The notes: a model not told the origin generated them from the letters alone. A DNA stretch of 64,000 nucleotides from Chloroflexota bacterium (GCA_023475345.1 JAMCWD010000001.1:248001-312000); one strand, 5' to 3'; counted from the first letter of the stretch, positions 9,793 to 44,077 are shown. Program-made: numbers and translations.

Positions 9793-11670
9793 TCACCACA
9801 CGAACCTGTCGCCGTCAGAGTGTTCCCGGCGTCTGTCTTCGAAGGGATACCGGTAGAGGCGCGTTATGTAGGAAACACCACGTCGTCGGTTGTGAAGCTC
9901 TTTTATGAGCGCCGGGGGCTTACCCGTCTCCTTCATCATAAGGGAATCCAGATGCGGTATCATCCGCTGACTGTCCTCCCGTTCCATGAGGATCAGGTAA
10001 TGCCAGCCTTTCATGTCATCCCGTTGTATTTCCTGGTTGAAGTTAAGAATCAGGTCAAGATGGAAGTAATGTTTTTTATCGGCCAGGTAACGCATGTAAG
10101 GCGGGGCAAGAGGGGAATCGAAGTTTCTTTTCACCAGGACCCGGATAATCTCGGACGGTTGGGCCGACGGGCAGTCCACCCGGATCGCCTCCAGCAGTTC
10201 TTTTTCAAGGGGGAAATCCGCCCGCTCCGGGTATGGCTCCACCCGGTCATGTTGTGGGAGGGGCGCAGTTGCGATGGGAATGTGGAGAAAGATCCCCTGT
10301 GCCCGGTATTGGAAAAGCCAGCCCGTGAGCTGCCAGAGAGAAAGCAATATCACCAGCGCCAGGGCTGCTCCCCTGAGACACGGCTTCAGCCGCCCCGCCC
10401 AGAAGATGGAGAGCAGCGCCACCGCGGGAAGGGCGGGGAGGATATAATACGGAAGCCTCAGAACCGCAAAAGCCGCCAGGAAAAATACGCCGCCTGCTAT
10501 CGATAGAAGAAGGATAAGAGTTTCGCCCCGCTTTTCATTGATCGCAGGAATGAAGGAAAGGATTGTTCCCAGCACAAGCAGCGCCAGCGCACCGGGGAAA
10601 AAGTCATTTATGGATTTTAAATAAAACAGGAGCATTGCAGGCAAGTCGAACCCGCCCAGGTGTGCTCCGGTCATCAGGTGTGAGCCGGCCCTGGCGGAAA
10701 ACTCACCCAGGTTGATTGCATAATGGGGGAAGCCCAGCAAAAGGAAAGCCAGGAAGGCATAGAGCAGGTTGAACCTGCGATTGACAGGGTCCTCCCCGGG
10801 AAGCCGTTTCTCCCACCTTACAACCGCCCATGTCAAAGCGCCCAGGAAAATCGCCCACAGCACAAGTCCGGTGTATAGCCACTGTCGAAAAACCCAGGGG
10901 CCGATGATCCGGATCATTGCTATGATCCCTGCAAGAACCAGGAAGCCTGCTATGATAAGGCTTCCGCGGCGAAATTGCCCCTTCAGCCCGTCCTTCCCTG
11001 CCAGCCAGATGGTTTCCATCCAGTAAAGGAGCGGCAAAATAAGGAAGAAAACAAAGGAGAACTTGGAAAGGGCCGCCATCCCGGCGAAAATTCCACAGAG
11101 GACGGCCTCCCTTCGTCTGCGAAATCCGTCGGAAAGAAAATAAAAAAGAAAACAAAGCGCCAGAAAGGCGGTCAGCGGAGCCTCGTGTCGAAATGTTACC
11201 CCGCCTGTAAACCACTGGGGCGATGTAGTTGTAATTAGAACAGCCATCCATGCCAGCCCCCTGCCGCCCAATGCCAGGCCTGTGCCGTAAACGGCGAAAA
11301 TGAGAATCAGGGAGAATACGCCTACCGACAGGCAGGCAAGTTTCTCCTGAGTTCCGAAAATCAGGTACGAAAGACTTCCGGTAAGATAGAGCACCGGCGG
11401 GTATTCCCTGGGCCTCCGGGCCAGGGCCATTTTCAGACCGTCTCCCCCCTGCTCCCCTGATACTTTCTCGTAGAAACCATATAACTTGCCAAGATGGAGA
11501 TCCATATCGGCGGGGAGAAACGAAGTGTTCTCCGACAGCCAGTAAGCCTGGACGGAAAACAAAAGAATAAAGAATAGAATCAGAAGGACACTGTCTATGA
11601 TCAAGGCTTTTTTGTTCACGGTAATACTTTTCTTCCCCTCAAAGACAGTAGTGAACTCAAGTAACGGCAT
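9793..11670 (-). CDS. GT39-type membrane glycosyltransferase
   Basis: 625 residues with a GT-C layout: a first helix at about residues 25-45, then a loop with FLPADMDLHLGK in which the DxD-like acidic pair sits at the GT39 catalytic position, followed by about ten further hydrophobic segments and a soluble tail from about 480. The tail resembles in length that of the GT39 genes at 6.5 and 17.0 kb, with shared features such as an initial SEN or SQS segment before the acidic loop, so these look like paralogues. It is transcribed alone on the minus strand. Acceptor unknown. Confidence 0.75.
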   Translation of the reverse strand: MPLLEFTTVFEGKKSITVNKKALIIDSVLLILFFILLFSVQAYWLSENTSFLPADMDLHLGKLYGFYEKVSGEQGGDGLKMALARRPREYPPVLYLTGSLSYLIFGTQEKLACLSVGVFSLILIFAVYGTGLALGGRGLAWMAVLITTTSPQWFTGGVTFRHEAPLTAFLALCFLFYFLSDGFRRRREAVLCGIFAGMAALSKFSFVFFLILPLLYWMETIWLAGKDGLKGQFRRGSLIIAGFLVLAGIIAMIRIIGPWVFRQWLYTGLVLWAIFLGALTWAVVRWEKRLPGEDPVNRRFNLLYAFLAFLLLGFPHYAINLGEFSARAGSHLMTGAHLGGFDLPAMLLFYLKSINDFFPGALALLVLGTILSFIPAINEKRGETLILLLSIAGGVFFLAAFAVLRLPYYILPALPAVALLSIFWAGRLKPCLRGAALALVILLSLWQLTGWLFQYRAQGIFLHIPIATAPLPQHDRVEPYPERADFPLEKELLEAIRVDCPSAQPSEIIRVLVKRNFDSPLAPPYMRYLADKKHYFHLDLILNFNQEIQRDDMKGWHYLILMEREDSQRMIPHLDSLMMKETGKPPALIKELHNRRRGVSYITRLYRYPFEDRRREHSDGDRFVW

Positions 11671-11901: not shown

Positions 11902-13311
11902 ATGAAAGTAGTGCTTATAAACCCGCCGCTGCCTGAAGAATCGATAAAAAACCCGGTAGTTGCAAACCTCTTTTCAAATGCAATGCCGCTGGGGATATGT
12001 TATCTTGGAGCCGTTCTGAAACAGGAAGGGATTGATGTCAATATCCTGGACGCCGCCGCGGAAAGATTGAACATTGAAAAATGCGGCAGGTGGATTATCG
12101 AAGAAAAGCCCGATATCCTGGGCATTACCTCTACAACCAATAATTTTTTCCAGGCTGTTGCGCTTGCAAAAAAATCAAAAGAACTGCGCCCGGATATGCC
12201 GGTGGTGCTGGGGGGAGTCCATGTAACCGCGGTTCCCGAAGATGCCCTCACTAATGAAGAATTCGATTACGGGGTAATAGGGGAGGCGGAAATAACATTT
12301 CCCGCCCTTGTAAAGGCTGTCGCCTCAAATGAGGACACGTCCGGCATCGAGGGCATCGCATACAGGGACGGGGATAAAATAAAAATAACGCCGCCCAGGA
12401 AATATATCGAAGACTTGGACACGCTGCCTTTTCCCAGCAGGGACCTGCTGAAAGCCCGACTTTACTCGTCGCTGCCCACGGATGTGCTCCGGCTCCCGAA
12501 ATTGACGATGGTTCCCACCAGGGGATGCCCGTTTAACTGCATTTTCTGCACATCGTGCGTAACCGGGAAGAATTTCAGGATCTTCAGCCCCGGCTACATC
12601 GCCGATGAAATGGAACATCTTTACAGGGACTTCGGCGCCAGGGAAATAGCATTTACCACCACGACCTTCACTGTGAACAGGAAGAAGTCGCACGAGTTCC
12701 TGGACGACCTGATAAAAAGGAAGATGGATCTTGTCTGGACGGTGTCAACCCGTGTCGATACGGTTGACAGGGAGCTTCTTGCAAAGATGAAAAAGGCCGG
12801 GTGCTGGTGTGTCCGCATAGGCATAGAGAGCGGCAACGAAGAAATTCTGAAGTTCATCAGGAAAGGCATCACTCTGGAACAGGTTAAGAAGGTAACGAGA
12901 TGGTGTGATGAACTGGGGATCCATGTAAAGACATTTTTCATAATCGGCCACCTGCCCGATACCGAGGAAACCATAAGGGACAGCATCGATTTCGCCCTGT
13001 CGCTCCCGATCGGTGATGTAACCGTCCAGTTCAACACGCCGCTTCCAGGGACGGCACAATATTCTATAGCCCGCGATTACGGGGTCCTGAAAAACAATAT
13101 CGCATCGCATAATTACTGGGAACCCGCCTTCATACCGAAGGGATTGACCGAAGAAAAGCTTATAAGCCTTCACCGAGAATTCTACAAGAAATTTTACATG
13201 CGCCCTGTATTATGGAAGCGTCATTTGAAGAAACTGATCCATCCCAGGACAATATTGAATTATATAAAGACGCTGGATCTTCTTTATTACCTGGCATTCG
13301 GGAAGAAATAA
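11902..13311 (+). CDS. B12-binding radical SAM protein (BchE/HpnR-like class)
   Basis: 469 residues. It begins with MKVVLINPPLPEES, a typical opening of cobalamin-binding rSAM proteins, followed by the Rossmann-like domain (VVLGGVHVTA, GVIGEAE) to about residue 170. The [4Fe-4S] cysteines are C209, C213 and C216 in TRGCPFNCIFC. IESGNEEILKFIRKG and TFFIIGHLPDTEE are conserved core segments of this class. No SPASM-like tail is present, unlike the rSAM genes at the left edge. Family members methylate or rearrange lipids, pigments or natural products. TATAAT lies 14 bases before the ATG (11883-11888) with no Shine-Dalgarno site, so the transcript might be nearly leaderless. It faces GT39 genes on both sides. 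Confidence 0.85.
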   Translation: MKVVLINPPLPEESIKNPVVANLFSNAMPLGICYLGAVLKQEGIDVNILDAAAERLNIEKCGRWIIEEKPDILGITSTTNNFFQAVALAKKSKELRPDMPVVLGGVHVTAVPEDALTNEEFDYGVIGEAEITFPALVKAVASNEDTSGIEGIAYRDGDKIKITPPRKYIEDLDTLPFPSRDLLKARLYSSLPTDVLRLPKLTMVPTRGCPFNCIFCTSCVTGKNFRIFSPGYIADEMEHLYRDFGAREIAFTTTTFTVNRKKSHEFLDDLIKRKMDLVWTVSTRVDTVDRELLAKMKKAGCWCVRIGIESGNEEILKFIRKGITLEQVKKVTRWCDELGIHVKTFFIIGHLPDTEETIRDSIDFALSLPIGDVTVQFNTPLPGTAQYSIARDYGVLKNNIASHNYWEPAFIPKGLTEEKLISLHREFYKKFYMRPVLWKRHLKKLIHPRTILNYIKTLDLLYYLAFGKK

Positions 13312-22824: not shown

Positions 22825-24885
22825 TTATTCGACGGGGACAAGGCCGTGGGGCATGTTAAAACGGTATAGCCTTATAACAAGCGGGCCGTCCAAATATGAT
22901 GAGAACCTCTTCTGCCACGATGAAACAATTTCTACTTCCTTCCGCCTCTTAAGCTGGTTCAGGTGATCGGAATAAAAAGGATAATCGGGAGGTTCCCCGG
23001 CATAGCGGATCTCAAGGATAAAATCGGGTTTTTCAAAAAACAACATCTGGCGGAACTCCCCAAATTCCATGTCCGGCGGGAATTTAACCCATTCAGCCCC
23101 GGCCTGGTACGCGCTCCAGGGAAGCTTGGCTGCAAGACGCACACTTTCCTTATCGGTAATCTTTTTGATCCTGGTTTTCAATTCCGGGAGGCTTGATAAA
23201 AACCTGTGCCTCTCCATAACGCTTCTCAAGGCAAAAATATTCTGGAAACAAAGAAGCAAAAGGATACATGACATAAAGATAACCAGCCTGTGGCGGGCAA
23301 GCGGCAAAAACGAGGACGAATTCATAATTCTGAAAAATGCTTCCCAGAAAGCGGCAATTAAAAAAATCCATAATATAAGCGACCGGTAACCCGAATAAGC
23401 CGCCATGCCGAATACGCCTGCTCCTCCCGCCTGGACCGGCCTGCCGCCGAAATAATATGCGGCCACAGCGGCGGCAAACAATATTAGGAGACCTGCTCCC
23501 CCGATGACCGCTGCCATCCTGGTCTTTGCCTGCCAGTCCAGCAGGCCGAGAACAATCACGCCGAATACCAGCATATAAAGGCTTATATAAAACAGCCCCG
23601 GAAGCTGCCTGAAAGTCGGTAAAAGATCAAGATACATGGGGCGCAGGTGATCCGACAGCGGAAACATCCATGACAGGCACAGGCCAGCCCCCAGGAGGAT
23701 CAAAAGCCCCCGGGACAAATTTTCCGGCCTCCTGTAAATCTCCAGAAGCCACGGGGCGATTATTATAACCGAAAGCGGGAGCAAAAACCCGTAATATCGC
23801 GGGTTGGCATCCCAGAAAGTCAGCATGCTCATTACGGCGGCCATCAGGAAAAACCACATCAAATAACGCGCGTTTAATTTTTTTAGCGCAGGCGGTACGG
23901 AAAATACAAGGCTTATAAAAAAGAATGGGCTGAAATTGGCAAGCATCGATGCCATGTTTTCGGGAAGGAAAGTAAAATATGATTTAAGCCATTTTACAAT
24001 GTCCAATCCTTGAGGGAGGATCTTGTAGCTTGTTGCAAGCTCTTTCAATGTTTCGATATTCTTTTCTCCCGGCAATCCAAAAATATAAATGAAATTAGTA
24101 AAAGGCCCTGTCATCCTCCACCGCCATTCCAGCGCGTTGTACAGGGATATGGTGGGCGGAGTTACATGGAAGCCGCCGAAATTTCCGGAAATAAAGAGCC
24201 AGTAAGGGATGCCTATAATAAGGAAGCCGAAACACATAAGCAGACCTGATAATATTCTCTGCTTCGCGGCGGAACTTTTAAAAAGAGACAAAATAATTAT
24301 CATGCCGCCGATGGCTCCGGCTATTGCTCCCTCAAATCTTGACAGGTATGCCAGGCCGAAAAACAGGCCGGCCCATAATCCTGAAATAACTTTGCCCCGG
24401 TTCAAAATATTTCCCATCTGCCATATCGCAAGGAAAAGCATGAGCGTATAAAGAGTCTCCGTCCTTCCGATCCCGCTGTAGTAAGCGAGGGGTGGCATAA
24501 ACGCGGCAAGCGCTCCGCCCAAAATTGCAGCTTCTTTTCCCCAAAGGTCTCTTATAATGAAATATACCGGCAGGACAATCAGCGTTCCGCATATCACCGA
24601 AATCAAAGGCGCACTTATATCTACAGGGAGTGGAACCAGGGCCACAAGCAGCGGGTATAACGGGGGCCAGAAAAGAAAGCCCCCCGGGAACTGAGTCAAT
24701 ATAACGCCCCCTCCGCCTGATGCAAGTAACTGGCGGAGGGCTTTCGCCGCTCCAAGATATGAAAGCGAATCGACCTCCAGAAAGCCGGGCAGCAAAAGAA
24801 GCAGGCGGAAAAGAAAAGCAACAAGCAAAAGCAGGGGCAGGTGCCGCCTTTCCAGGAAATCGATAAGACCCCCCGGCAATTTCAC
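22825..24885 (-). CDS. GT39-type membrane glycosyltransferase (large)
   Basis: 686 residues, about 12-13 hydrophobic segments. The first loop reads LPGFLEVDSLSYLGAAK, with the acidic residue in the GT39 position; FPGGFLFWPPLYPLLVAL and SRFEGAIAGA are further family-like segments. It has a long soluble tail after residue 580. GTG start, two bases after the stop of the S26/TPR gene, so it belongs to the same operon as the PqqD-like and rSAM genes. This repeats the rSAM, S26-fusion, GT39 order seen at 0-8.3 kb. Acceptor unknown; a glycosylated peptide is a speculation. Confidence 0.78.
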   Translation of the reverse strand: MKLPGGLIDFLERRHLPLLLLVAFLFRLLLLLPGFLEVDSLSYLGAAKALRQLLASGGGGVILTQFPGGFLFWPPLYPLLVALVPLPVDISAPLISVICGTLIVLPVYFIIRDLWGKEAAILGGALAAFMPPLAYYSGIGRTETLYTLMLFLAIWQMGNILNRGKVISGLWAGLFFGLAYLSRFEGAIAGAIGGMIIILSLFKSSAAKQRILSGLLMCFGFLIIGIPYWLFISGNFGGFHVTPPTISLYNALEWRWRMTGPFTNFIYIFGLPGEKNIETLKELATSYKILPQGLDIVKWLKSYFTFLPENMASMLANFSPFFFISLVFSVPPALKKLNARYLMWFFLMAAVMSMLTFWDANPRYYGFLLPLSVIIIAPWLLEIYRRPENLSRGLLILLGAGLCLSWMFPLSDHLRPMYLDLLPTFRQLPGLFYISLYMLVFGVIVLGLLDWQAKTRMAAVIGGAGLLILFAAAVAAYYFGGRPVQAGGAGVFGMAAYSGYRSLILWIFLIAAFWEAFFRIMNSSSFLPLARHRLVIFMSCILLLLCFQNIFALRSVMERHRFLSSLPELKTRIKKITDKESVRLAAKLPWSAYQAGAEWVKFPPDMEFGEFRQMLFFEKPDFILEIRYAGEPPDYPFYSDHLNQLKRRKEVEIVSSWQKRFSSYLDGPLVIRLYRFNMPHGLVPVE

Positions 24886-24887
24886 TT

Positions 24888-26102
24888 TTAATCCACTCTC
24901 TTCCCGAGAGATGCCAGGTTATCTATAACGGCCCGGTTTTCCGGGTCAAGCCGGTAAGCTTCCATAAAAGCGGCTATGGCCTCATCCTTTTTGCCCAACT
25001 CAAGCCTTGCAACTCCCAGATTATTCAGAATATGGGCATCCAGAGCATCATGCTCCCGTGCTTTAAGGAACACTTTCTCAGCCCTTTCCGGCCTTCCTGT
25101 CGCCAGGAACAGGCATCCCAGGTGGGTGTAAATCTTCGGGTCGTCCTGGCGGAGAGACAAGGCATCACTGTACTTGTCCTCGGCTTTTTCAAGGTCGCCA
25201 ATCTGCTCGAATGCCCATCCCATATTCAAATGACAGGAAGCATAACCCGGCAGGTTCTTCAATGCCTCAGTGTAATGCGGGACGGCCTCTTCATATTTCC
25301 CCTGGTCGCAAAGGACATTGCCCCAGAGGTTGTGTGCGTACGCTTGTATCTCGCTGCCCCGCCCAGCTTTATCAAGTGCCATTTCAATTTCAACCAGGGC
25401 TTCGTCAAATCTTTTTTCTCTCCGCAGTATCTCGGCTTTATTCGTATGGGAAAGGTAAAGACCGGGATCCAGCTTCAGCGCGTCATCAAACTTCTCCAGA
25501 GCCGGGTCCAGTTCCCCCGTGCGGAACAGCGCCACGCCGTAATAAAACAGGAGGGACGAGTTTTTAGGGTCCAGGGGATACGCGTTCTGAAGCAGCGTCA
25601 GCGCCTCGTCAGGCATTTTATCATCCAATAGCAGGCGGGCTTCTTTCAGCATTCCTGCGGCGCGTCCCCGGGCTATATGCCTCATGTATAAACTGCCCCG
25701 CCTGTATGATTCTTTTGCCGTTTTACGGCCTTCATTCCTGATCGCGGCCGTTTCCAGATCAATCTTTTCACCGCCGCGCTCGACCATGATAACCTTTCCT
25801 TCCACGGCTTCAAAAGACACGGGTATGTCAAGATGAGGAGAATTGTCCCCTTTTGTAATATAAAAAGCGCCGCTCTTTTTATTGAGGATACGGACGACCC
25901 GGTGAAGGAAGCGGCCGCCGCTCCTTTTAAAGAGTATGATGTCGCCCAGCCCGATATCTTTTGTTTTACGGATCCTGACAGTATCCCCGTTCAGCAGGGC
26001 AGGAGCCATGCTGTTCCCGTTTACAACCGTCTGTTCGAGACGGCCCGCGGTTGCCAGCAGATCGCCCAGAGCGCCTTTCAAATGTTCGGGAAATTCATTC
26101 AT
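24888..26102 (-). CDS. Fusion: soluble S26-type (Ser-His) peptidase domain and TPR repeats
   Basis: 404 residues from ATG at 26102, which has GGAGG seven bases before it; the frame is open upstream to 26144 but that would overlap the rSAM gene by 41 bases. Residues 20-110 match the SipW-type S26 core with S31 (GNSMAP), H67 (FLHRVV) and D86 (ITKGDN) all in place. There is no signal peptide or membrane helix, so the domain should be cytosolic, unlike ordinary signal peptidases. Residues about 140-400 hold six to seven TPR motifs (for example KIYTHLGCLFLATGRPERAE). Placed directly after the PqqD-like and rSAM/SPASM genes, it is the best candidate for removing the leader of the nearby peptide. 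That role is inference. Confidence 0.72.
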   Translation of the reverse strand: MNEFPEHLKGALGDLLATAGRLEQTVVNGNSMAPALLNGDTVRIRKTKDIGLGDIILFKRSGGRFLHRVVRILNKKSGAFYITKGDNSPHLDIPVSFEAVEGKVIMVERGGEKIDLETAAIRNEGRKTAKESYRRGSLYMRHIARGRAAGMLKEARLLLDDKMPDEALTLLQNAYPLDPKNSSLLFYYGVALFRTGELDPALEKFDDALKLDPGLYLSHTNKAEILRREKRFDEALVEIEMALDKAGRGSEIQAYAHNLWGNVLCDQGKYEEAVPHYTEALKNLPGYASCHLNMGWAFEQIGDLEKAEDKYSDALSLRQDDPKIYTHLGCLFLATGRPERAEKVFLKAREHDALDAHILNNLGVARLELGKKDEAIAAFMEAYRLDPENRAVIDNLASLGKRVD

Positions 26103-26103
26103 G

Positions 26104-27396
26104 TCAGCCTCCAATGTTTGCCATCTCTCTTGCCGTCTCTTCAAAGATCATCCTTATCAATTCACAATGCGGGTCGGGAGAATTCAAACCGCCGCTTTCC
26201 AGTAAAGACGACGCTGGACATCCTCCGGCGCAGAGCATTCTCCATGGACATGAAGAACATTCGGGAATATTGCGTATCCTTTCCCCTGGCATCGCCTGAA
26301 GCGATTTCAGCTTCTCCCCTCCCAGCATCTCCGAAACAGTCTGACTCGTTACATTCCCCAATTTGAAGCCGGGCAGTGAAAGCTGGGAACACGGATAGAC
26401 ATCCCCTTTAAACGAAACATTGAGCTTTTCGCCAATCGGGCACCTCTCCCGCATCTTGCCCGACAGAAAAATCTCTCTTATACTGCGGGGAAGGATACCG
26501 TAAACATTTACCGGGTGCTTATCCATGAATCGTAATGCCGACACTGTCTCATCGATGCCGGGTGATATCTCCTCCCAGCATGAAGCGGCTTTTCCGATCT
26601 TTCCCAGCGGTTGGACAAGCAGAGATTTTATGCCCAGGTCTTTTGCCGCTTCAAGGACTTCCGGGAAGTGAGCAACGTTGTATTTATTCATCGTAAAACA
26701 GAGGGTTACCCTGTCCCCCATGCCTCGATCCAGAAGGTTAAGCAGCCCCCGCCATGCAGGGTTAAAAGATCCTTTGCCGCGCATCGCCTCGTGGGTCCCG
26801 GCTTTAACGCCTTCAAGGCTCAACTGAATAGAGAGTCCCGGAATTTCGGCCAGTCGGATACAACTCTCATCATCAAGCAGGACGCCGTTGGTAACCAGGG
26901 CCGTTGAAAGAATAGACGATCCGAATTCCAGCATGTCCCATATACCGGGATACAACAGAGGCTCCCCGCCTCCTATGACAAGAAATTTTGCCCCGGCTTC
27001 CTTAGCCTGAAGGATGACCGAGCGAGCAATATCCTCCGGCATGTCTTCATTAACAGGCGGCGAATTATAACAATACCTGCATGAAAGGTTACAACGTCCA
27101 GTAACCTCGAGATATAACCCCGAAAATCCCCCGTCGCCCGGAACGCCGGGAGAAAAAAATCCGCGGTCTTCCAGGTGTTTTATGAAAGACCCGACATCGC
27201 TTCTTATCTCATCGGCAGGAACGTTATATTTGCCGGAAAGCTGTAGAGATATTTCTTCATCGCCGCGACCTTCTTCCAATAAAGAAAGGATCTCGTTTCC
27301 GATGGGATTAACAACCGTCCACGAACCGTTGGACGGGTTTAAAACAAATACGCCTTTCTCCCCCTTAACCCTATGGAGGGGAGAATCGGTTATCAA
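26104..27396 (-). CDS. Radical SAM/SPASM peptide-maturase-like protein with N-terminal PqqD-like domain
   Basis: 430 residues from TTG at 27396. I prefer this start because GGAG lies eight bases before it and it overlaps the PqqD-like stop as TTGA; the open frame extends to a GTG at 27432 without a ribosome site. Residues 5-82 look like a PqqD/RRE-type winged helix (VFVLNPSNGSWTVVN...FIKHLEDRGFF). The rSAM cysteines are C102, C106 and C109 in GRCNLSCRYCY. A SPASM region fills the C terminus (CPIGEKL, VYPCSQL, CSSCPWRMLCAGGCPAS, DPHCELI). This is the architecture of RiPP-modifying enzymes such as PqqE and sactisynthases. Substrate is probably the 39-residue peptide encoded divergently. Confidence 0.85.
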   Translation of the reverse strand: MITDSPLHRVKGEKGVFVLNPSNGSWTVVNPIGNEILSLLEEGRGDEEISLQLSGKYNVPADEIRSDVGSFIKHLEDRGFFSPGVPGDGGFSGLYLEVTGRCNLSCRYCYNSPPVNEDMPEDIARSVILQAKEAGAKFLVIGGGEPLLYPGIWDMLEFGSSILSTALVTNGVLLDDESCIRLAEIPGLSIQLSLEGVKAGTHEAMRGKGSFNPAWRGLLNLLDRGMGDRVTLCFTMNKYNVAHFPEVLEAAKDLGIKSLLVQPLGKIGKAASCWEEISPGIDETVSALRFMDKHPVNVYGILPRSIREIFLSGKMRERCPIGEKLNVSFKGDVYPCSQLSLPGFKLGNVTSQTVSEMLGGEKLKSLQAMPGERIRNIPECSSCPWRMLCAGGCPASSLLESGGLNSPDPHCELIRMIFEETAREMANIGG

Positions 27397-27668
27397 CCCT
27401 GTGACTCCATAAGCCTTAAATCCAGGAAGCACTCAAGGGTCGAGTTCATATCCTGTTCGAGGCAATCAATGTCTTCGTTCGAATAACCGCGCTTCAACTC
27501 GGCGAGCAGTTCTTCTTTCGTCGAGCATTCGTCACACTTCTCCCATATAAAGGTCGCCGTTGAATTCATGTGATGGACTTTGCCTTCTTCCTGGTCATAT
27601 AAAAGGCACTCGTTCCCCAATTTCCGGGCTTCTACGGCATCTTTCTTCTTCGGCAATTTTCCGGCCAT
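27393..27668 (-). CDS. PqqD-like RiPP recognition element protein
   Basis: 91 residues. LGNECLLYDQEEGKVHHMNS followed by TATFIWEKCDECSTKEELLAEL and DMNSTLECFLDLRLM is the PqqD pattern: three-strand sheet, the N-x-T-A-x-x-I-W segment, then a helical bundle. PqqD-like proteins bind leader peptides and present them to maturases. It sits immediately before the rSAM/SPASM gene with a four-base TTGA overlap and 65 bases after the B12-type rSAM gene. Together with the YxxP motif of the nearby peptide leader this supports a RiPP locus. PqqD homologues also occur in other contexts, so the partner is inferred. Confidence 0.82.
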   Translation of the reverse strand: MAGKLPKKKDAVEARKLGNECLLYDQEEGKVHHMNSTATFIWEKCDECSTKEELLAELKRGYSNEDIDCLEQDMNSTLECFLDLRLMESQG

Positions 27669-27733
27669 CTCTTCACCTCTAACAATTGATTATCGCCTTA
27701 TTTTCTATAAAGCCGGCACTTGCCCTGCAAGGA

Positions 27734-29359
27734 TCACCCCCGGATGATATAACGGTCCAATTTCTCATCCCGGCTTAAAAATTCTTCAACCTTATCATCG
27801 TAACTCTTTATCGCAGGCTCAAGCTCCGACGCCAAATTTTCCTTCAGGGTGATGACCGACTTTTCCGCCGCGCCCAGTGTCTGCGTCTTGAAATGCCGGA
27901 CGCCCTCCGAAAGAAATTTTTCTTCGTGGATGGATATCAGGTGAGTCAGGGATCTGAACTGTTTTTGAAGCTCTGTAAAATCTTCTTCGGGCAGTTCCCT
28001 GGCAAGTCTCTCATAATTTATATAATGGACCCTGGGGATGATCTTGCGGAAATCCCGCGCCTGCTCTCTCAGCCTTTCCACTCGCTCATCCGCAACATGA
28101 TATGTCGGCAGCACATCGTACGGCAAGAGGCTGGTAGGCGTCGGGAAAAGCCTCCCTTCCCTCGACAGCCTGTCATGTATAGGCGTCCCGACAAATATCT
28201 GGAGGCTGTTGAACAGGTCGTCTATCTCGATAAGATCGCCGTCGGCTTCCAGCAGCGATGCGAACTCCAGGTTTTCCTCCACCTCGTCCAGCGTGGTGTA
28301 AGGGTCGAACATGATAAAGCCGGGATAACACTTGATTCCCAGGCCCTTCAATTTTTTGGCGGCTTCCCTGTTTGTTGTAGAATCCGACATCTTGCCGAAA
28401 GTCTGGAGCGCCCGGTCAACCCCGCTTTCAAACCCTACGAACACTGTGCCCATGCCGGATGCTTTGAGAAATGCGAAAAGGGCGTTGTCCACATCGGAGG
28501 CCCGGCACAAGATCGAATAACGGGCGGTGATGCCCCGCCTGAGGATCTCTTTTGCCACATCCATCGCCCTGGCATTGCCTTTCCTGCCGGTTCCGAGAAA
28601 ATTATCGTCGGGGAATGCAAATTTTTCGATCTTCCATTCGGCGGCCAGCTTTTCCATCTCGTCAACGACGCTCTTTGCGCTCCTCCCCCGCCAGTGAGAG
28701 CCGGGCGATTTTCCGTAAAACGAATGGATGCTGCAGAAAGTACACTTCCCGTAACACCCCCTGCTGGAACAGATCGAGCCGTAATCCTGCATCGTCATCA
28801 ACTGGGGAAGGGTGTCCCTGGCGGGAAACGGCAGCGCGTCAAGGTCCTCTATCAGCGGCCTGGGCGGGTTGGACTTGATATTGCCGTCGCGATCCCTGTA
28901 TGTGAGGTTCCCGATAGTATCCCAGGACGAAGGCTTGTCAAGCTTCTCTACAAGTTCCAGAAGGGTGAATTCCCCTTCTCCCCTGACAATGGAATCTATT
29001 TCCGGAAAATCTCTTAACAGGTCTTCCGGCAGGAACGTTGGGAGGTATCCCCCGAAAGTTATGTGGCCGTCAAAGCCGGATTTGCGCAGCCTTTGAACCA
29101 GGCTGACGGCAGATGTCATGAAGCCGTGCGTGGCCGAAAAGCCTATCAGGTCGGCAGGCACGGACGATATCAGCGGGAAAAATTGATCCGCGTCAAGCCC
29201 GTCCAGGTAAGCGTCCTTCACGGTAACTTCGTGTCCGTGCATACGCAAAAATGACGCGAGATACCCGAGGCCGAGATGCTCGAAAGGATAAGACGGGCGC
29301 CTGGGAAGATAGCGTGATTCATCAATCAAGAGCGGCGGATTGATAAGCAAAATTTTCAT
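27734..29359 (-). CDS. B12-binding radical SAM protein, candidate peptide methylase or maturase
   Basis: 541 residues from ATG at 29359. The frame is open to 29464, but the preferred ATG has GAGGTG before it, a clear promoter lies between the two, and MKILLINPPLLIDES is the conserved start of cobalamin-type rSAM proteins. Residues 1-175 form the B12-binding domain (THGFMTSAVSLVQRLR, GGYLPTFLPEDLL, SIVRGEGEFT). The cluster cysteines are C202, C206 and C209 in SRGCYGKCTFC. The C-terminal part (about 400-541) is helical with no SPASM cysteines. It heads the operon with the PqqD-like and rSAM/SPASM genes and is divergent from the 39-residue peptide. Reaction unknown; C-methylation is typical of this class. 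Confidence 0.87.
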   Translation of the reverse strand: MKILLINPPLLIDESRYLPRRPSYPFEHLGLGYLASFLRMHGHEVTVKDAYLDGLDADQFFPLISSVPADLIGFSATHGFMTSAVSLVQRLRKSGFDGHITFGGYLPTFLPEDLLRDFPEIDSIVRGEGEFTLLELVEKLDKPSSWDTIGNLTYRDRDGNIKSNPPRPLIEDLDALPFPARDTLPQLMTMQDYGSICSSRGCYGKCTFCSIHSFYGKSPGSHWRGRSAKSVVDEMEKLAAEWKIEKFAFPDDNFLGTGRKGNARAMDVAKEILRRGITARYSILCRASDVDNALFAFLKASGMGTVFVGFESGVDRALQTFGKMSDSTTNREAAKKLKGLGIKCYPGFIMFDPYTTLDEVEENLEFASLLEADGDLIEIDDLFNSLQIFVGTPIHDRLSREGRLFPTPTSLLPYDVLPTYHVADERVERLREQARDFRKIIPRVHYINYERLARELPEEDFTELQKQFRSLTHLISIHEEKFLSEGVRHFKTQTLGAAEKSVITLKENLASELEPAIKSYDDKVEEFLSRDEKLDRYIIRG

Positions 29360-29368
29360 TTTTTCACC

Positions 29369-29390
29369 TCGCCCGTCCAGTATCGGGCGA
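29369..29390 (-). promoter_or_regulatory. Seven-base-pair hairpin at the 5' end of the rSAM mRNA
   Basis: On the minus strand TCGCCCG (29384-29390) pairs perfectly with CGGGCGA (29369-29375) around an eight-base loop. It begins about where transcription should start and its 3' arm runs into the GAGGTG ribosome site, so folding would partly cover it. This could set expression or protect the mRNA end. Regulatory role is inferred. Confidence 0.45.
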
Positions 29391-29395
29391 AGAAA

Positions 29396-29425
29396 AGTAT
29401 AGCAAACTTGAAAGCGGCAGGTCAA
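29396..29425 (-). promoter_or_regulatory. Sigma70-type promoter for the rSAM/PqqD operon
   Basis: On the minus strand TTGACC (29420-29425), 18 bases, TATACT (29396-29401). The predicted start near 29389 leaves about 30 bases of leader before the ATG at 29359. This also rules against the upstream in-frame start at 29464. Confidence 0.65.
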
Positions 29426-29568
29426 ATCCCGCAGTGATTTATTTTTATAATTTCGCACCGTCATACCTCGAAGGCAGGTATCCAGTCCGGTAATGTGAGT
29501 TATAGCCCCAAACCTGCATTACAGCACAAATTCCCTTGAAGAGGTTGTCGATTAAGGAATGCTCACGC

Positions 29569-29611
29569 CATGAGCCGCATTGGGCCGGCCTATGACAATG
29601 CGTTACTCATG
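29569..29611. repeat. Two-step inverted repeat between the divergent promoters
   Basis: CATGAG (29569-29574) pairs with CTCATG (29606-29611) and, further in, GCATTG (29577-29582) pairs with CAATGC (29596-29601); a GGCCGGCC palindrome lies in the loop (29583-29590). It is the only strong dyad in 29426-29703, which otherwise shows no ORF I can support. It could be an operator or a structured RNA. Confidence 0.45.
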
Positions 29612-29703
29612 CCTGTATCGTGTCCTGTCCGGAATGAAGAAGTCCCCGGCAGGCTCGAACAATATTTTTTTTGCAGAAAAGAAATAAAAAACTTTCCAAA
29701 AAA

Positions 29704-29732
29704 TTGACTGTCTTGAAATTTTCTGTTATATT
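29704..29732 (+). promoter_or_regulatory. Strong sigma70-type promoter for the precursor peptide
   Basis: TTGACT (29704-29709), exactly 17 bases, TATATT (29727-29732), within an AT-rich stretch. Predicted start near 29739 gives a leader of about 50 bases to the peptide ATG. Nothing else on this strand lies before the terminators downstream, so the promoter appears dedicated to the peptide. Confidence 0.7.
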
Positions 29733-29790
29733 ATAAAAAGCACCGGTGGAGTGTAATACGGTGTAAAACTGCAGAAAGGGAGGTGAGTTG

Positions 29791-29910
29791 ATGGGTTACG
29801 AAAAACCAGTGGTGATGTCTTTTGAAGCTGAGAAGATGGAGAAAGAAGCAACCTTGGACAAAAAGGTTTCGAATCCTCCGCCTTCTGCCTGGAGTTGTGT
29901 GAGAGGCTGA
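29791..29910 (+). CDS. Candidate RiPP precursor peptide, 39 residues
   Basis: A short gene with a strong AAAGGGAGGTGA ribosome site seven bases or fewer before the ATG and its own promoter and terminator. The N terminus MGYEKPVVMSFEAEK carries a YxxPxV motif (Y3, P6, V8) like that of leaders bound by PqqD-type recognition domains, including lasso-peptide leaders. A charged stretch (residues 12-25, rich in E and K) follows, and the C-terminal end NPPPSAWSCVRG has the only W (W34) and only C (C36), which are plausible targets of rSAM chemistry. No signal peptide. It is divergent from the B12-type rSAM, PqqD-like and rSAM/SPASM genes. I do not recognise a described RiPP family for it. Core boundaries and modification are inferred. 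Confidence 0.75.
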   Translation: MGYEKPVVMSFEAEKMEKEATLDKKVSNPPPSAWSCVRG

Positions 29911-29944: not shown

Positions 29945-29990
29945 AGCCCGCCCGAGTCCTTCGCCGAGAGGAGGCGGAGGGCTTTTATTA
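29945..29990 (+). terminator. Rho-independent terminator after the precursor peptide
   Basis: CCTTCGCC (29958-29965) pairs with GGCGGAGG (29973-29980), one G-U pair, seven-base loop, followed by GCTTTTATTATT. It is 48 bases after the peptide stop and makes the peptide mRNA monocistronic. Confidence 0.7.
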
Positions 29991-30234: not shown

Positions 30235-33200
30235 ATGAAGAAAAAAATCGGTCGGAACGAACTTTGCCCTTGTGGAAGCGGAAAAAAATATAAAAAGTGC
30301 TGTCTGAATAAAATTCTACAACCTTCACACCTGAAAAGTTTGGAGGCAGAATTTGCACAATATGATCAATTAGAGTTGATTGCTACTCTCGGCGGCCTTC
30401 AAGTCTATCCTGAAAATCATTCCCAAAATCTCAGGCTTGAAACTGCGTCGGGAATCGCGTGCTCAATCAAAAATAGCGGTACGAAGAAAGTAGAACTAGA
30501 GACACTGCAAGAAACCCTCAATAAGTTTCTCCCTTCGAGAGGTTCTATTGGGATGATGGAAGATCCGCTTGAAAACCTTTTTACAGAAAATATAATTTTC
30601 CATGGTGGAAACTATATTGTCTATCCCGGTATCGATGATAGCGGTAGCTTTATTTTAACAAATCTCTTCGATGCAATTTTTCAAATTGGAGAGGGACTGA
30701 TTCAAAATTTCAAAGACATTGTAGGCATATCCTCAATATCTATGCTTGCTTTAAGTAATGAGGTTGCCAGACGCTTGGGGCATTCGAGATATATGGACAG
30801 CCCGGAACGAAATATGGAAGATATTAAGGTTCCAGAACAAAACCAACTTCATAAATTTCGCGATGCTGTAATATTTACTAAGCAGGAAATAGATATATTG
30901 CTTTATCCACTTGGAGCTAATTATACTTGCCTGGAACCTTTCATTAACCAAATAGGTTTTACCTTTTCCGAAGAAGATCCTTGGAAAAACCCGCTGTTTA
31001 TAAGACCCCTGATTGAGATGGACGATAAAATAATTATGGCCAGACCCATTTCGGTCACAAGCGTGATTCGTCATTTCATCTGGGTAATCTCTGAAAAATA
31101 TCAAATGCGTAAAGTCCTTGCTTATAATTATAGACAGAGTTTGATGATCAGAATATATGAATATATGAAACGCTTCTCTCTTGCATTCATTGATATGAGA
31201 TTACCTCATTGTGAAAAGGAACTACCTATTGAAGAAGGTGTTTTTCAAATTGATTTTGACAAACTAGCCTATGTTCAACTTATTGCCGATGACGCAAGAA
31301 ATTATAATAGGAACGAACCATATGATATGTTAAAAATTGATGAAGTTTTTAAAGATATATTTAAAAGACAAGAATTTATAGCTAAATGGCTTATCGAAAA
31401 TAATCCTTGTAAATATTTGAAATTATTTGTAATTTTAGTTATAGGAAAAATCGGAAGAACTATTTTTTACCCCTCAAAAAAACTTAATGATACTCTCTTT
31501 CTAGAAATTTCAGCTGAAGATTTAGAAACAATAGCTCACCTTAGGGATTGTGATAATCTAACATTCTGGAAATATGCTAATTCACTGAAGAAACTAACTG
31601 AATCAACAAGTATAATAGCCACCTCATCATTAGATCTATTTGCGAACTATCTTGACCATCACCATTCTTTTTATTTAACAGAAGGAAAACAACCAAACCT
31701 AATTAATGTCATCCCAGGTTATGGGCGAAACTTGAAAATAAAAGCAGCACGGGTATGTGATATTCATGCCGCTCTTCAGATAATACCTAAAGGATATACA
31801 TCCGTGTTCAGATGGCACAAAGATGATTATATTCCTATTTATTTACCGGAAAGAGATGTAGGCAGAATACTGAAACTCCTGGTTGAAGGATATCATCAGC
31901 CAATATGGATAAGACCAAAAGATGATTTAGATAAGATCCCAACTGAATTACGTGAGATATATTTAGAATTCACGCAAATGCTTGCTTACTGGCTATGGCA
32001 ATTGACGCCCAGTCTTAAGCCGCATTTTGAACCTCTTGGAACAACTCCAATAAATATATTATTTGATCTTGAAAATTCTAACAAATGGATTGACATCAAT
32101 AATACACAAGTAATTGACTATGAAGTTCTAATTTTCGATAGTATTGTAAATAAACCCAATATAATAATAACTATTCCATACGCCATACAATCTTATCTAT
32201 ATAGCGCTGACAATGAGGGCGAGAGACTGTTAATAGATAAATTAATGGAACTATTCGGGGTTATGCTTGAAAAAGATAATTTGCCTAATAATTTAGGTGG
32301 AGTTGAACGAAAAAGTATCTTAGATCTTCATGCCCCACATGGCATGAAGAAGAAATTATTTTTAATAAATACTGATAAAGATATTGCATTAAATCCAAAA
32401 AATCTATCTCCTTTTAGAAAACTACAAGAACACAATATGCAAGAACAATTAGATGGATTGGTGAAGGAACTAGGAATGAAACTGCCTGATGAAGAAATTT
32501 TTGTTAATAAAGATGAGCGTACATGCCTTTGTAACAAAATCGTTGAAATTTACTTTAACAGATTAAAATCTCTCTTGTCCAAATTCAATTGGAAGCATAT
32601 CATAGAATATCTTATTGCTAGCAATGAAGCGATCTGGCATCACCAGACAACAACAAGTTTGACAATCCCAACCACAATCGAATGTTATTCAGATATAAAT
32701 TCATACGTTGAATTAACACAAAAAGATTATCGCGACATTGGACATGCCGCATTGGCAACTAGGACTCTTATTGAAATAATATCCGCAATTCCTCCCAGAG
32801 GAGATAAAATAATAAGTATTGATGAAATGGATGAATTATTGGCAGTTACAACTCAATTGTTAAATTGGGCCTTAATAAGTGAACATATTTATTTTAATAT
32901 ATATAGCCCTGAATTAATATTACTACCATCAGGAAGAATTGCAATCGACAATAGAAAAATTATGGATGAATCCTGGAATTCCTTTACATTATCAAAAGCA
33001 TTCGAGAAAGTAGTTTCGGCAGAAAAGCGATTCGAAAAACATTTTAAACACCAAAAAACCGAGGAAGAATTCATCTGGAATAAACAGGAATGTGAAGATG
33101 CGTTTTCTGCGGAATTTGGTTTAACAATGACACAGATAGGAGAATTTCATGGTTGTCTTTCTTCAATTGGATTTGAACAGAACGCCCTATCTCCTAATCT

Positions 33201-34029
33201 CCATTTATCGGCTCTGAAAAATAAATTAAAAGAACTTTTAAAATGGTCTGAAAATGATTTAAATTGTGCCATTGATTTGTTTTCGCTTAAACCCAGAGAA
33301 TATTATGATAAGGCTCCTGAAGGTTTCAATGTATCAAAAGATATATATCCATGGAGGTACAATCGTCAATTATCATATATGCGAAGACCGTTAATTATAG
33401 GGCCTGAACCTGTAGATGATTCTATTGTCTTCTGGGGACCTCGACATGTATCTAACGCGGGTATTTCCTTCACAGGTAATATATTAATGGGAAGATATGA
33501 GGCAAAATCTGAAAAATTAAAGACATTTATCGGAAAACTCAGAAACCAAGCTGGCAAGGAATTTTTAAATGAAACAAAAATTTGGTTTGAGGAAAATACA
33601 AACTGGCAAATAGAACCAGAAGTTCCTATCAAGCCAGGAAAGCCCTTAAGTTCGGAGAAAGATTTGGGGGACATAGATCTCCTTGCGATCGATATAACAA
33701 ATAAGAGAATCTTCTCAATTGAATGCAAAAACATAAATTACGCAAGGATTCCATCTGAAATTTCAAATGAAATGGAACGATTATTAAAAGGCAAAAATGG
33801 AGAGGATTCATGGGCCGACAAACATTTAAAAAGAGACAAATGGCTCAAAGATAATTTTAACATATTATCCAAGGTGTATGCTTTACCATCGAAACCTTTC
33901 CAGATATATTCTTTATTTGTGATGGCAGAAGAGATACCTTCGACTTATATTGGAAAAATGCCCCTCCCTTGTTTTTCTTTTAGTCAATTAAAGAGAGAGG
34001 GAGTAAATTTATTCTCTTTTTTTAAATAA
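30235..34029 (+). CDS. Large AT-rich protein with N-terminal SEC-C zinc motif and C-terminal PD-(D/E)xK nuclease-like domain
   Basis: 1264 residues. GRNELCPCGSGKKYKKCC (C11, C13, C22, C23) is a canonical SEC-C zinc motif. The long middle part (about 40-1080) is not recognised and shows no membrane segment. Near the C terminus, LGDIDLLAID (D1146, D1148) and FSIECKN (E1163, K1165) match the catalytic pattern of restriction-endonuclease-fold nucleases. The start ATG follows GAGG by 11 bases. The gene is visibly more AT-rich and richer in I, N and K codons than all neighbours, which suggests horizontal acquisition. It is alone, between a terminator and a convergent TPR gene. A single-protein defence nuclease is possible; DNA repair or an orphan effector are alternatives. 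Confidence 0.75.
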   Translation: MKKKIGRNELCPCGSGKKYKKCCLNKILQPSHLKSLEAEFAQYDQLELIATLGGLQVYPENHSQNLRLETASGIACSIKNSGTKKVELETLQETLNKFLPSRGSIGMMEDPLENLFTENIIFHGGNYIVYPGIDDSGSFILTNLFDAIFQIGEGLIQNFKDIVGISSISMLALSNEVARRLGHSRYMDSPERNMEDIKVPEQNQLHKFRDAVIFTKQEIDILLYPLGANYTCLEPFINQIGFTFSEEDPWKNPLFIRPLIEMDDKIIMARPISVTSVIRHFIWVISEKYQMRKVLAYNYRQSLMIRIYEYMKRFSLAFIDMRLPHCEKELPIEEGVFQIDFDKLAYVQLIADDARNYNRNEPYDMLKIDEVFKDIFKRQEFIAKWLIENNPCKYLKLFVILVIGKIGRTIFYPSKKLNDTLFLEISAEDLETIAHLRDCDNLTFWKYANSLKKLTESTSIIATSSLDLFANYLDHHHSFYLTEGKQPNLINVIPGYGRNLKIKAARVCDIHAALQIIPKGYTSVFRWHKDDYIPIYLPERDVGRILKLLVEGYHQPIWIRPKDDLDKIPTELREIYLEFTQMLAYWLWQLTPSLKPHFEPLGTTPINILFDLENSNKWIDINNTQVIDYEVLIFDSIVNKPNIIITIPYAIQSYLYSADNEGERLLIDKLMELFGVMLEKDNLPNNLGGVERKSILDLHAPHGMKKKLFLINTDKDIALNPKNLSPFRKLQEHNMQEQLDGLVKELGMKLPDEEIFVNKDERTCLCNKIVEIYFNRLKSLLSKFNWKHIIEYLIASNEAIWHHQTTTSLTIPTTIECYSDINSYVELTQKDYRDIGHAALATRTLIEIISAIPPRGDKIISIDEMDELLAVTTQLLNWALISEHIYFNIYSPELILLPSGRIAIDNRKIMDESWNSFTLSKAFEKVVSAEKRFEKHFKHQKTEEEFIWNKQECEDAFSAEFGLTMTQIGEFHGCLSSIGFEQNALSPNLHLSALKNKLKELLKWSENDLNCAIDLFSLKPREYYDKAPEGFNVSKDIYPWRYNRQLSYMRRPLIIGPEPVDDSIVFWGPRHVSNAGISFTGNILMGRYEAKSEKLKTFIGKLRNQAGKEFLNETKIWFEENTNWQIEPEVPIKPGKPLSSEKDLGDIDLLAIDITNKRIFSIECKNINYARIPSEISNEMERLLKGKNGEDSWADKHLKRDKWLKDNFNILSKVYALPSKPFQIYSLFVMAEEIPSTYIGKMPLPCFSFSQLKREGVNLFSFFK

Positions 34030-41309: not shown

Positions 41310-42761
41310 TCATGCCTGAACAGGCGGCCTGTCCGGGCGGCAGAAGCCGAGATACCTCTTCATATCGGGATTATCGTGGATCTTCCACATCAGTTCCTCA
41401 AGCACTATCTGATAGAAACGGCACATAGGGCTTTCCCTGAACAAAGTTTTATACATGGCATATACTTTGCTGGTACAACCTGTCCCGTGAAATCTCCTGA
41501 AAGCACACCTGCTGCATCGGGGTATATTTTCTGTTTTCCTCTCGTAAAGCTCCTTAAGGACAGGACTGTTATCGACAACTTCAGTGAGAGGCGTCGGGTC
41601 AAAAATGCTTCCTGCTGTAAAAAGCCCCATACTTGCCGTTTCTTCACAACCCGATATTCCGCCGTCGAGAGAAAAGCCGAGTATGCTGTTGCCTATGCCG
41701 CACGGGGAACGGTAACACATGAAAGGACGCGACTTGGAAGTAAGGTTGTTAATAAAATGGTCGAGGTCATTTATCCTCAAGGGCTTATCATATTTGCGGC
41801 ACCATGCAAGTGCCTCATCGACCATTTCAAGGTATTTTTCTGCGAATTTTTCGCCCCTTACATAGTGGAAATCCATCTCTTCGGTAGCGCGCCCGATATA
41901 TGAAGTATAATTAATCCTCATCCCTTCGAAATTGTTCTCAAGAAAAAATCTGAATACCGGCAGGTAATCTTCAGGATGATGAACTACCGCCAGAACCCCC
42001 GGAGTCGATTTCGCTTCACGCAGAAGATTTATACCCCTCCAGACATCGGCATGAGTTCCCCTGCCGTCAGGATATTTCCGGTACTTATCATGCACTTCGG
42101 CAGGGCCGTCAATACTTACACCGGGACTGATTTTCGCCTCGTGTATTTTTTCGGCGATCTCTTTAGTGATAAGCGTGCCGTTGGATTGAGTGATAAACCT
42201 GGCCCGCTTATTGACTTCTTCATTGATCTCCCGGCCATGCTTTACGGCTGCAAGTATATTATTAAACTCCAGTAACGGTTCCCCGCCATGGAAATTTATA
42301 ACGATATCGGGTCCCGGCAGCTCCCTTATTATCCTCTCTACAATGAGTTTTGCGGTATCGAGAGGCATCCTGTTTTTCTTGCTGTGTGCCCTGGCATAAC
42401 AGTACGAGCACCTCAAATTACACGCCTCTGTTATATGAAGGCAAAGGAAAGCCGGATACCTCTGAGGTGTCTTCCATAACTCGGAAGGCTCATAATAACT
42501 TCGTCCGTTCACGCGGATAAGATCATCAACATATAACCGTTGTAAAAACGCCCGGCCGGAAGCGGCATCTGAAGTATAGTTTTCCCTGATGAAATCTCCT
42601 GCGGCAATCGGCCTGTTAAGCCTTTTGAATGAGACCAGCTCATCTCCTTCAAGCACCGTCCACGAAGCCGAATCGGGCGAAACGAAAAGAGTACGCTCTC
42701 CGCGTACGAATTGTGCCAGGTCGGGACTTCTTACGATAAGCGCCTGGTCGTTTATATTCAA
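41310..42761 (-). CDS. Radical SAM/SPASM protein (pair member 2)
   Basis: 483 residues. Residues 1-92 form a compact domain (VSPDSASWTVLEGD, LYVDDLIRVNGRSYY) that looks like a PqqD-related recognition module. Cluster cysteines C114, C118 and C121 in EACNLRCSYCY. VIVRG-type B12 features are absent; instead a SPASM tail carries CYRSPCGIG, SGCEETAS, CSRCAFRRFHGTGC and SPMCRFY. The layout is that of anaerobic sulfatase-maturase-like or peptide-maturase rSAM enzymes. Its ATG overlaps the upstream stop (ATGA). No candidate small peptide was found within 100 bases of the pair, so the substrate may be encoded elsewhere. Confidence 0.82.
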   Translation of the reverse strand: MNINDQALIVRSPDLAQFVRGERTLFVSPDSASWTVLEGDELVSFKRLNRPIAAGDFIRENYTSDAASGRAFLQRLYVDDLIRVNGRSYYEPSELWKTPQRYPAFLCLHITEACNLRCSYCYARAHSKKNRMPLDTAKLIVERIIRELPGPDIVINFHGGEPLLEFNNILAAVKHGREINEEVNKRARFITQSNGTLITKEIAEKIHEAKISPGVSIDGPAEVHDKYRKYPDGRGTHADVWRGINLLREAKSTPGVLAVVHHPEDYLPVFRFFLENNFEGMRINYTSYIGRATEEMDFHYVRGEKFAEKYLEMVDEALAWCRKYDKPLRINDLDHFINNLTSKSRPFMCYRSPCGIGNSILGFSLDGGISGCEETASMGLFTAGSIFDPTPLTEVVDNSPVLKELYERKTENIPRCSRCAFRRFHGTGCTSKVYAMYKTLFRESPMCRFYQIVLEELMWKIHDNPDMKRYLGFCRPDRPPVQA

Positions 42762-44077
42762 GAAACATTCACTCCCATCGCCGCCGGAATACCGGGGTTT
42801 TCATAAATAAGCCACATCAATTCCGGTATCATATAACGCATATAAGCGCATGATGCATCTTCTCTCATTATTGTCCCGTATTCGGAATACGCCCTAGCGG
42901 GACAGCCTCCTGCGCAGATATTTCTAAAAGCACATCTTCGACACCTTGGCAATGAATCCACCGTCCGTGAGGCAAGCTCATCCTTATCAGCCGAAGCACC
43001 GCATTCAATCAATTCCCTGCAGGGATAAACCCTGCCGTCGGCGCCCATATATTTGACGCGCGACCCGGCGGCACAAGGGGAAAAACGGCATGGATAAACC
43101 CGTTGGGGACTTATGAGGCCTCTGATTAAATGTTTTAAATCATATAGATGAAAAATCGAGGAATCTGTTTCGTTTTTGTGTTTTAAATATTCAAGAGCTT
43201 TTATCTGGGCTTTGCCCCATTCTTCCCAGGCGGCTTCGCGTAATTCACCGGGCGTCGCAAGGCTTATGGCGGCCTGCGTCAATCCTTCCGAGATAAAATA
43301 TTCCAGCACCGGGATCAACTCATCGGGCGACTGGATCTGTGACATGGCTCCAACTTCGATCCTCCTGTCTTTCGCCTTTTGAAGAGCCTCGCGCGTTTTA
43401 AGGAAGCTCCCGCTTCCGTCGGGAAGAATACGGCGCCTGTCATGGATTTCCAGGGGGCCGTCCAGCCTGAAAATCATGTTCACCCTGCAGCAGGCCAGGA
43501 TTTCCAGCATATCTTCTTCAAGCGGTATGCCGCCTGTCTGGATTAACAGCCGTACCCTGCCGTCCGCTTTGTTATACAAATCCTTGATGATGCCTGGCAG
43601 GGCGGGGTTTAATAAGGGTTCGCCCCCTCCGAATATGATGTTATAAACACTGTCCCAGCCTGCATGGAGTATCTCGTCGGCGCCGAAACCGGATGTCTTA
43701 ACATCACCTCTTTTACAACCCGGACACAAAAGAGAGCAGGGGCTTCCGAGATCAACCGTTAGCGTCGGCATGATATGCCTGTTATCCCATATATTTATTT
43801 TTTCGGGGAAGTAACGCCCGTTAAGCCGCACAAAGCCGTGCTTGAAAAGATCATCGATAAAAAAGCGCAGCCCGTCGGGGTTGAGTCCCGTATGATCGGA
43901 CACGAGCGATGAAAAAGGCTGGCCTCTCCTCAGCCTGGAAAACACCTGAACGAAATCCCCTGAAAGAACCTGCCAGGAGGAAGAATCGGGATCGATCACC
44001 AGCATCCGTTCATCTCTCCTGTAAGTCGCCAGGTTCTCTTTTTTATCAATAAGTGTTGAATCCTGAATTTCCGGCAC
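42758..44077 (-). CDS. Radical SAM/SPASM protein (pair member 1)
   Basis: 439 residues from GTG at 44077 with a GGAGGT ribosome site. The N-terminal domain (VIDPDSSSWQVLSGD, FIDDLFKHGFVRLNGRYF) is clearly related to that of the downstream gene, and the rSAM cysteines fall at exactly the same positions, C114, C118 and C121 (GSPCSLLCPGC). The loop sequence CSLLCPGCKRG differs from the usual CNLxCxYC. SPASM cysteines: CRFSPCAAG, VYPCREL, CRRCAFRNICAGGCPA, ASCAYMR. The pair may be one heterodimeric or sequential maturase. It is divergent from TPR genes with back-to-back promoters. Confidence 0.82.
   Translation of the reverse strand: MPEIQDSTLIDKKENLATYRRDERMLVIDPDSSSWQVLSGDFVQVFSRLRRGQPFSSLVSDHTGLNPDGLRFFIDDLFKHGFVRLNGRYFPEKINIWDNRHIMPTLTVDLGSPCSLLCPGCKRGDVKTSGFGADEILHAGWDSVYNIIFGGGEPLLNPALPGIIKDLYNKADGRVRLLIQTGGIPLEEDMLEILACCRVNMIFRLDGPLEIHDRRRILPDGSGSFLKTREALQKAKDRRIEVGAMSQIQSPDELIPVLEYFISEGLTQAAISLATPGELREAAWEEWGKAQIKALEYLKHKNETDSSIFHLYDLKHLIRGLISPQRVYPCRFSPCAAGSRVKYMGADGRVYPCRELIECGASADKDELASRTVDSLPRCRRCAFRNICAGGCPARAYSEYGTIMREDASCAYMRYMIPELMWLIYENPGIPAAMGVNVS

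Follow-up and report, generated by a model that had tools for sequence, protein, structure and literature searches.

A stretch of 64,000 nucleotides from a Chloroflexota bacterium (GCA_023475345.1, JAMCWD010000001.1:248001-312000; hereafter the window, meaning the whole stretch that was analysed) carries a very short gene facing an operon of radical S-adenosylmethionine (rSAM) enzymes, and the two together are considered here as a candidate pathway for a ribosomally synthesized and post-translationally modified peptide (RiPP). The short gene (29791-29910, plus strand) is an open reading frame (ORF) of 39 residues which translates as MGYEKPVVMSFEAEKMEKEATLDKKVSNPPPSAWSCVRG, ends in a stop codon and is preceded by a strong ribosome site, GGGAGGTGA. 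Its product has a leader with the motif YEKP (residues 3-6, 29797-29808, plus strand), the putative binding site of a RiPP recognition element (RRE), and a tail, PPPSAWSCVRG (residues 29-39, 29875-29907, plus strand), the putative core, which holds a single tryptophan (Trp34) and a single cysteine (Cys36). The leader motif is of the YxxP type, for which the consensus [Y/W]xxPx[L/V/I/A/F/Y] has been given (PMC13381572).

The operon diverges from this gene on the minus strand and consists, in order, of a B12-binding rSAM enzyme of 541 residues (27734-29359; Pfam B12-binding and Radical_SAM domains), a discrete PqqD-like RRE of 91 residues (27393-27668; PF05402, E = 2e-12), an RRE-rSAM-SPASM fusion of 442 residues (26104-27432; PF05402, PF04055 and PF13186), a protein with an archaeal-type, SipW-like S26 peptidase domain and tetratricopeptide repeats (S26-TPR, 24888-26102; TIGR02228 for the domain) and a PMT_2-type membrane glycosyltransferase (22825-24885; a library domain), which begins directly 3' of the S26-TPR gene after a two-base gap. 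From PqqD through SPASM and S26-TPR to PMT, each gene overlaps or directly adjoins the next, which suggests a single transcription unit; the B12-rSAM gene lies 65 bases upstream. The first four of these genes had been recognized in the initial annotation of this DNA, but the PqqD domain within the SPASM protein (residues 28-92) and the adjoining PMT gene had been overlooked. The PMT_2 gene is an uncertain member of the pathway; genes of the PMT type are frequent in these genomes.

Homologues of the peptide were searched for in 98 relatives and then, with a two-row alignment, in 149 genomes of the phylum; the sample comprises two precursors, one phylum and metagenome-assembled genomes (MAGs), that of the window (G000) being 86% complete. 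The sole true homologue among the 98 relatives, MKKKYEKPSITTFEERTVVENLDDVKVSGPPPSAWSCVRG (G008:C7, E = 5e-8), comes from Candidatus Eremiobacterota MAG SMBSF27 (G008), which belongs to another family of the phylum than the window genome, and convincing matches in the larger set are confined to these same two genomes (2 of 149). Because the homologue has an identical 11-residue tail in another family, the peptide is beyond chance. The YEKP motif is identical as well, so that both features which the initial annotation had read in the peptide, the leader and the tail with its tryptophan and cysteine, are kept in the homologue. At the codon level, the selection that it had proposed to look for is seen: the tails differ by 5 synonymous and 0 nonsynonymous changes (dN, the nonsynonymous divergence, = 0), while the leaders differ by 8 synonymous and 14 nonsynonymous changes. 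This comparison of two sequences clearly indicates a translated ORF under purifying selection, which is concentrated in the tail. Outside the ORF, intergenic conservation is weak in the pairwise alignment of the window with G008.

Domain and family profile scans matched no library family to the 39-residue peptide, the viral contigs searched gave no homologue, and inspection of all the remaining YEKP sites gave no second precursor in the window genome or G008. A match in Sphingobium, from the named genome collection, was rejected since it has an in-frame stop upstream and shares PPPSAWSC alone. As to the signals around the gene, an extended -10 promoter-like site lies upstream (29704-29732, plus strand; 10 of 12 matches, 17-nucleotide spacer), and the G008 peptide also has such a site; near the window peptide there are 5 promoter-like sites as against 1.5 ± 1.3 in shuffled sequences. 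Downstream, there is a weak terminator-like stem of 12 pairs (29954-29984, plus strand), one of 2 such stems in the region, where 1.2 are expected. The initial annotation had assigned the gene a strong promoter, a ribosome site and a terminator. Its ORF, coordinates and ribosome site stand, but by comparison with shuffled sequences the evidence is suggestive for the promoter and weak for the terminator.

The enzymes of the operon show a similar distribution. Full-length S26-TPR occurs in 2 of the 149 genomes, again the window genome and G008 (34% identity over 405 residues), all remaining matches spanning the TPR part alone. The window B12-rSAM enzyme has a full-length orthologue (46%) in G008 only, and among the 98 relatives the SPASM enzyme has a match below 1e-40 in G008 only. 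By RecA, other sampled genomes are nearer to the window genome (G004, 75% identity, and G016, 73%) than G008 is (68.9%), so the joint presence of these genes is not explained by shared ancestry alone. It may be asked whether the small gene, though conserved, has nothing to do with the operon that it lies beside and encodes a short protein of its own, such as a regulatory leader or a small signalling peptide. This is quite improbable: its adjacency is lost in G008 and its leader has diverged, as such a protein would allow, but it has a YxxP motif and a RiPP-sized tail with one tryptophan and one cysteine, it stands opposite two RREs, and the peptide and S26-TPR co-occur exclusively. In addition, the two genomes have different genes downstream of it, and it is therefore not the leader of a shared downstream gene.

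Taken with the domains of the facing operon, these observations make it probable (about 0.78) that the locus is a RiPP pathway with delivery through a YxxP motif and an RRE, radical modification of the tryptophan- and cysteine-containing tail and leader removal in the cytosol. Several observations weigh against it. The data hold just two precursor sequences, and no exporter or immunity gene was recognized. Moreover, G008 has its components at four separate places: the peptide, the orthologue of the B12-rSAM enzyme, the operon with PqqD and S26-TPR, and the SPASM enzyme. The SPASM homologue there (33%) lacks the RRE domain and stands alone at a contig end. The B12-rSAM gene which does adjoin the G008 peptide belongs to a different, expanded subfamily and may be there by chance. 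In G008 the S26-TPR gene lies in an operon of U32-type, PqqD, B12-rSAM and S26-TPR genes, on another contig than the peptide, and the orthologue of the window B12-rSAM enzyme lies 24 kb from the peptide on the same contig, adjoining three U32-type genes. Hence gene presence is conserved in G008 and adjacency is not, and the expectation of the initial annotation that the peptide would recur beside homologous enzymes had a mixed outcome: the genes are present together, but the peptide is not beside the PqqD/S26 operon. Likewise, its proposal that the peptide is the substrate agrees with the YxxP leader, the selection on the tail and the presence shared with S26-TPR, B12-rSAM and SPASM enzymes, and disagrees with the loss of adjacency.

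A conserved adjacency of peptide and B12-rSAM gene in G008 was considered and dropped, as the enzyme belongs to the expanded subfamily, whose genes are often near receiver-domain-like genes; its orthologue in the window genome (59%) has no peptide adjoining. This family of about 440 residues (MKIALISPRGAER type; L166-L179) has about nine members on contig G000:C43 and seven in G008, several of them adjoining short receiver-domain-like proteins.

The SPASM protein has the CxxxCxxC motif and a complete C-terminal SPASM cysteine pattern. Its solved relatives include PqqE, SkfB and 5wgg; the alignment to 5wgg spans residues 29-416 and takes in the RRE region. Its best NCBIfam profile is that of the sactipeptide maturase StsB (residues 23-427, including the RRE), at 115 bits against a cut-off of 625. 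From these structures and this profile, one may reasonably suppose a thioether at Cys36, with a crosslink at Trp34 as the alternative; the initial annotation had proposed Trp34, Cys36 or the prolines as putative targets. The B12-rSAM enzyme has CxxxCxxC at residues 202-209, and the motif DxHxxG was absent on inspection of its sequence. Its nearest solved structure is OxsB and its nearest profiles are HpnJ, BchE and ApyD. The discrete RRE finds its closest solved structures, with weak E values, among lasso-type PqqD/B1 proteins. Since the operon has two types of rSAM enzyme, the peptide could be a real RiPP precursor which is tailored by just one of them, SPASM or B12-rSAM, the other serving another substrate. 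The two are not always linked, as seen from the solitary SPASM gene and the U32-type neighbours of the B12-rSAM gene in G008, yet both share the two genomes of the peptide and lie close together in the window; this division of labour is a serious contender, somewhat short of an even chance.

As for leader removal, the isolated S26 domain reaches 54.6 bits to archaeal-type signal peptidase I (TIGR02228, cut-off 51.85), and S31, H67, D86 and D92 are invariant across four proteins, those of the window and G008 and two from a further genome, G003. The first three residues had been correctly numbered in the initial annotation, given a translation start at the ATG at 26102, and its description of the domain as helix-free agrees with the hydropathy, which predicts no transmembrane segment (highest 19-residue value, 0.8). 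LppS, a SipW homologue, depends on its RRE for cutting a leader of the YxxP type and requires S29, H68 and D93 (PMC13381572), and on this precedent leader removal is assigned to the S26-TPR protein. Cytosolic cleavage by S26, as first suggested, has thus an experimental precedent in LppS, and the step itself is proposed here by analogy. A LexA-like regulatory or housekeeping protease acting on another substrate is unlikely. It would suit the structure model (mean pLDDT 72.5, from an alignment of four sequences), in which the predicted fold resembles both LexA domains and signal peptidases, and the TPR part, which suggests protein partners, but not the bit score to archaeal-type signal peptidase, the LppS-like Ser-His-Asp set or the fact that in both genomes the S26-TPR gene shares an operon with genes for PqqD and an rSAM enzyme.

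In the proposed RiPP pathway, the YEKP leader of the 39-residue precursor would be bound by the discrete PqqD-like RRE, by the RRE domain of the SPASM enzyme or by both, as motif and domains suggest. The SPASM enzyme would then modify the invariant tail, most likely with a thioether or carbon crosslink at Cys36 or Trp34, and the B12-rSAM enzyme might add a second radical modification such as C-methylation. The membrane-free S26-TPR protein would cut off the leader in the cytosol in an RRE-assisted, LppS-like manner, probably near the Ser27/Asn28 junction, to give a product of about 12 residues. With an invariant tail and a diverged leader, the two sequences make a conserved molecule with a fixed, signal- or cofactor-like role more likely than a fast-evolving bacteriocin.

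As in RiPP pathways generally, the locus has an encoded precursor, a leader and core under selection and adjoining tailoring enzymes. With the linear polyphosphorylated peptides (LPP; LppA, LppB and LppS, PMC13381572) it shares the YxxP leader, the discrete PqqD-type RRE and a SipW-like archaeal-type peptidase with Ser-His-Asp, here recognized by sequence features. However, it agrees with the LPP leader consensus, YxxPxVLxHQxIxFETxxS (PMC13381572), in YEKPVV only, F and E being spaced otherwise; LPP cores are variable (PMC13381572), and the HprK-like kinase, NTP (nucleoside triphosphate) transferase and MsbA-like transporter are absent from the window operon. As in sactipeptide and ranthipeptide systems, there is an RRE-rSAM-SPASM maturase with full SPASM cysteines, and the peptide has one invariant cysteine, Cys36. 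The thioether maturases SkfB, StsB and 5wgg share with the window enzyme the N-terminal RRE, CxxxCxxC, full SPASM motif and cysteine-containing substrate, but its scores are well under the curated cut-offs, as already given for StsB, the core has one cysteine, and a discrete RRE and a B12-rSAM enzyme are additional. The locus would seem to work like LPP-type leader removal combined with RRE-SPASM maturation.

The pyrroloquinoline quinone (PQQ) and mycofactocin pathways also have a short precursor with an apparently fixed tail, an RRE chaperone and a SPASM enzyme. In contrast, the window SPASM protein scores 74.7 bits against a cut-off of 381 for PqqE and 111 against 265 for mycofactocin, and the window operon has no PqqA- or MftA-like sequence or further pathway genes and has a B12-rSAM enzyme. 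Lasso peptide systems (B1, B2 and C) share the YxxP leader and PqqD-type RRE, but the asparagine-synthetase-like cyclase (C) and transglutaminase-like B2 peptidase are absent from the window operon. SynChlorMet cassettes (ScmC-ScmF) share a PqqD-like protein and SPASM enzymes. The cassette of G003 (L212, G003:C249 8634-13437; ScmC 256, ScmD 130, ScmE 604 and ScmF 467 bits) also has a YxxP, Cys/Gly/Pro-rich peptide (12264-12500) and an archaeal-type S26 protein without membrane helix (10183-10830), so the pairing of a SPASM RiPP with S26 is not unique to the window. The window locus could then be a diverged SynChlorMet cassette, its SPASM protein reaching 91.9 bits to ScmF (TIGR04251), but this is very improbable: that value and the 78 bits to ScmE (TIGR04250) compare with a cut-off of 400, the 22.5 bits to ScmD (TIGR04248) with one of 100, ScmC was not found at the locus, which has a B12-rSAM enzyme and the S26-TPR fusion, and the precursor tail is unrelated. 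Around other PqqD genes of the phylum, another set of RRE, SPASM and S26 was seen in G003 alone.

The locus fits none of the catalogued families tested, and its separate elements are all known. The initial annotation had recognized no described class, with which the family scans agree; the elements are known, though, and a similar set stands beside the G003 SynChlorMet cassette. A somewhat bolder reading, rather under an even chance, is an undescribed RiPP class of Eremiobacterota-related bacteria, with an invariant PPPSAWSCVRG core, RRE-SPASM and B12-rSAM tailoring, SipW-like/TPR release inside the cell and a conserved signal- or cofactor-like product. The papers searched contained none on SynChlorMet and none joining S26/SipW peptidases with radical SAM RiPPs. 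If the proposed RiPP pathway is true, leader removal of the signal-peptidase type extends to radical SAM RiPPs, rSAM/SPASM maturation and RRE-dependent removal of this type, separately known, are united in one compact pathway, and the invariant core would indicate a conserved small molecule, for instance a signal or cofactor, of a little-known bacterial phylum. The pathway is directly testable, as the small precursor can be synthesized and the enzymes are all in one operon.

Some other loci may be mentioned. Two B12-rSAM genes of 750-800 residues (window 416-5364) are the last of at least nine paralogues that stand head to tail on one strand (window start and upstream, G000:C43:232303-253364; L240, L238), alongside which no precursor or RRE was seen. 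Two neighbouring rSAM/SPASM proteins (window 41310-44077) are related to the PapB, HxsB and CbpB maturases, and the rSAM match of the second seems to lack its usual N-terminal part. A large SEC-C protein (window 30235-34029) has a distant likeness to anti-phage Upx (209.8 bits, cut-off 1900). Outside the window, a PqqD protein, several B12-rSAM genes and a pair of large uncharacterised proteins are accompanied by two peptides (L035, G000:C36, 10026-10187 and 13998-14204, both minus strand), each with a KDYKEPVF leader and a tail rich in Ala, Val and Gly; the tails recall heavily C-methylated peptides, yet the leader is YxxP. Furthermore, in G008 a PqqD-like protein adjoins an ATP-grasp protein and a decarboxylase-like protein dependent on pyridoxal phosphate (L034, G008:C94, 7145-9796), whose N-terminus carries a leader-like YETP motif, as if the whole enzyme were the client of the RRE.

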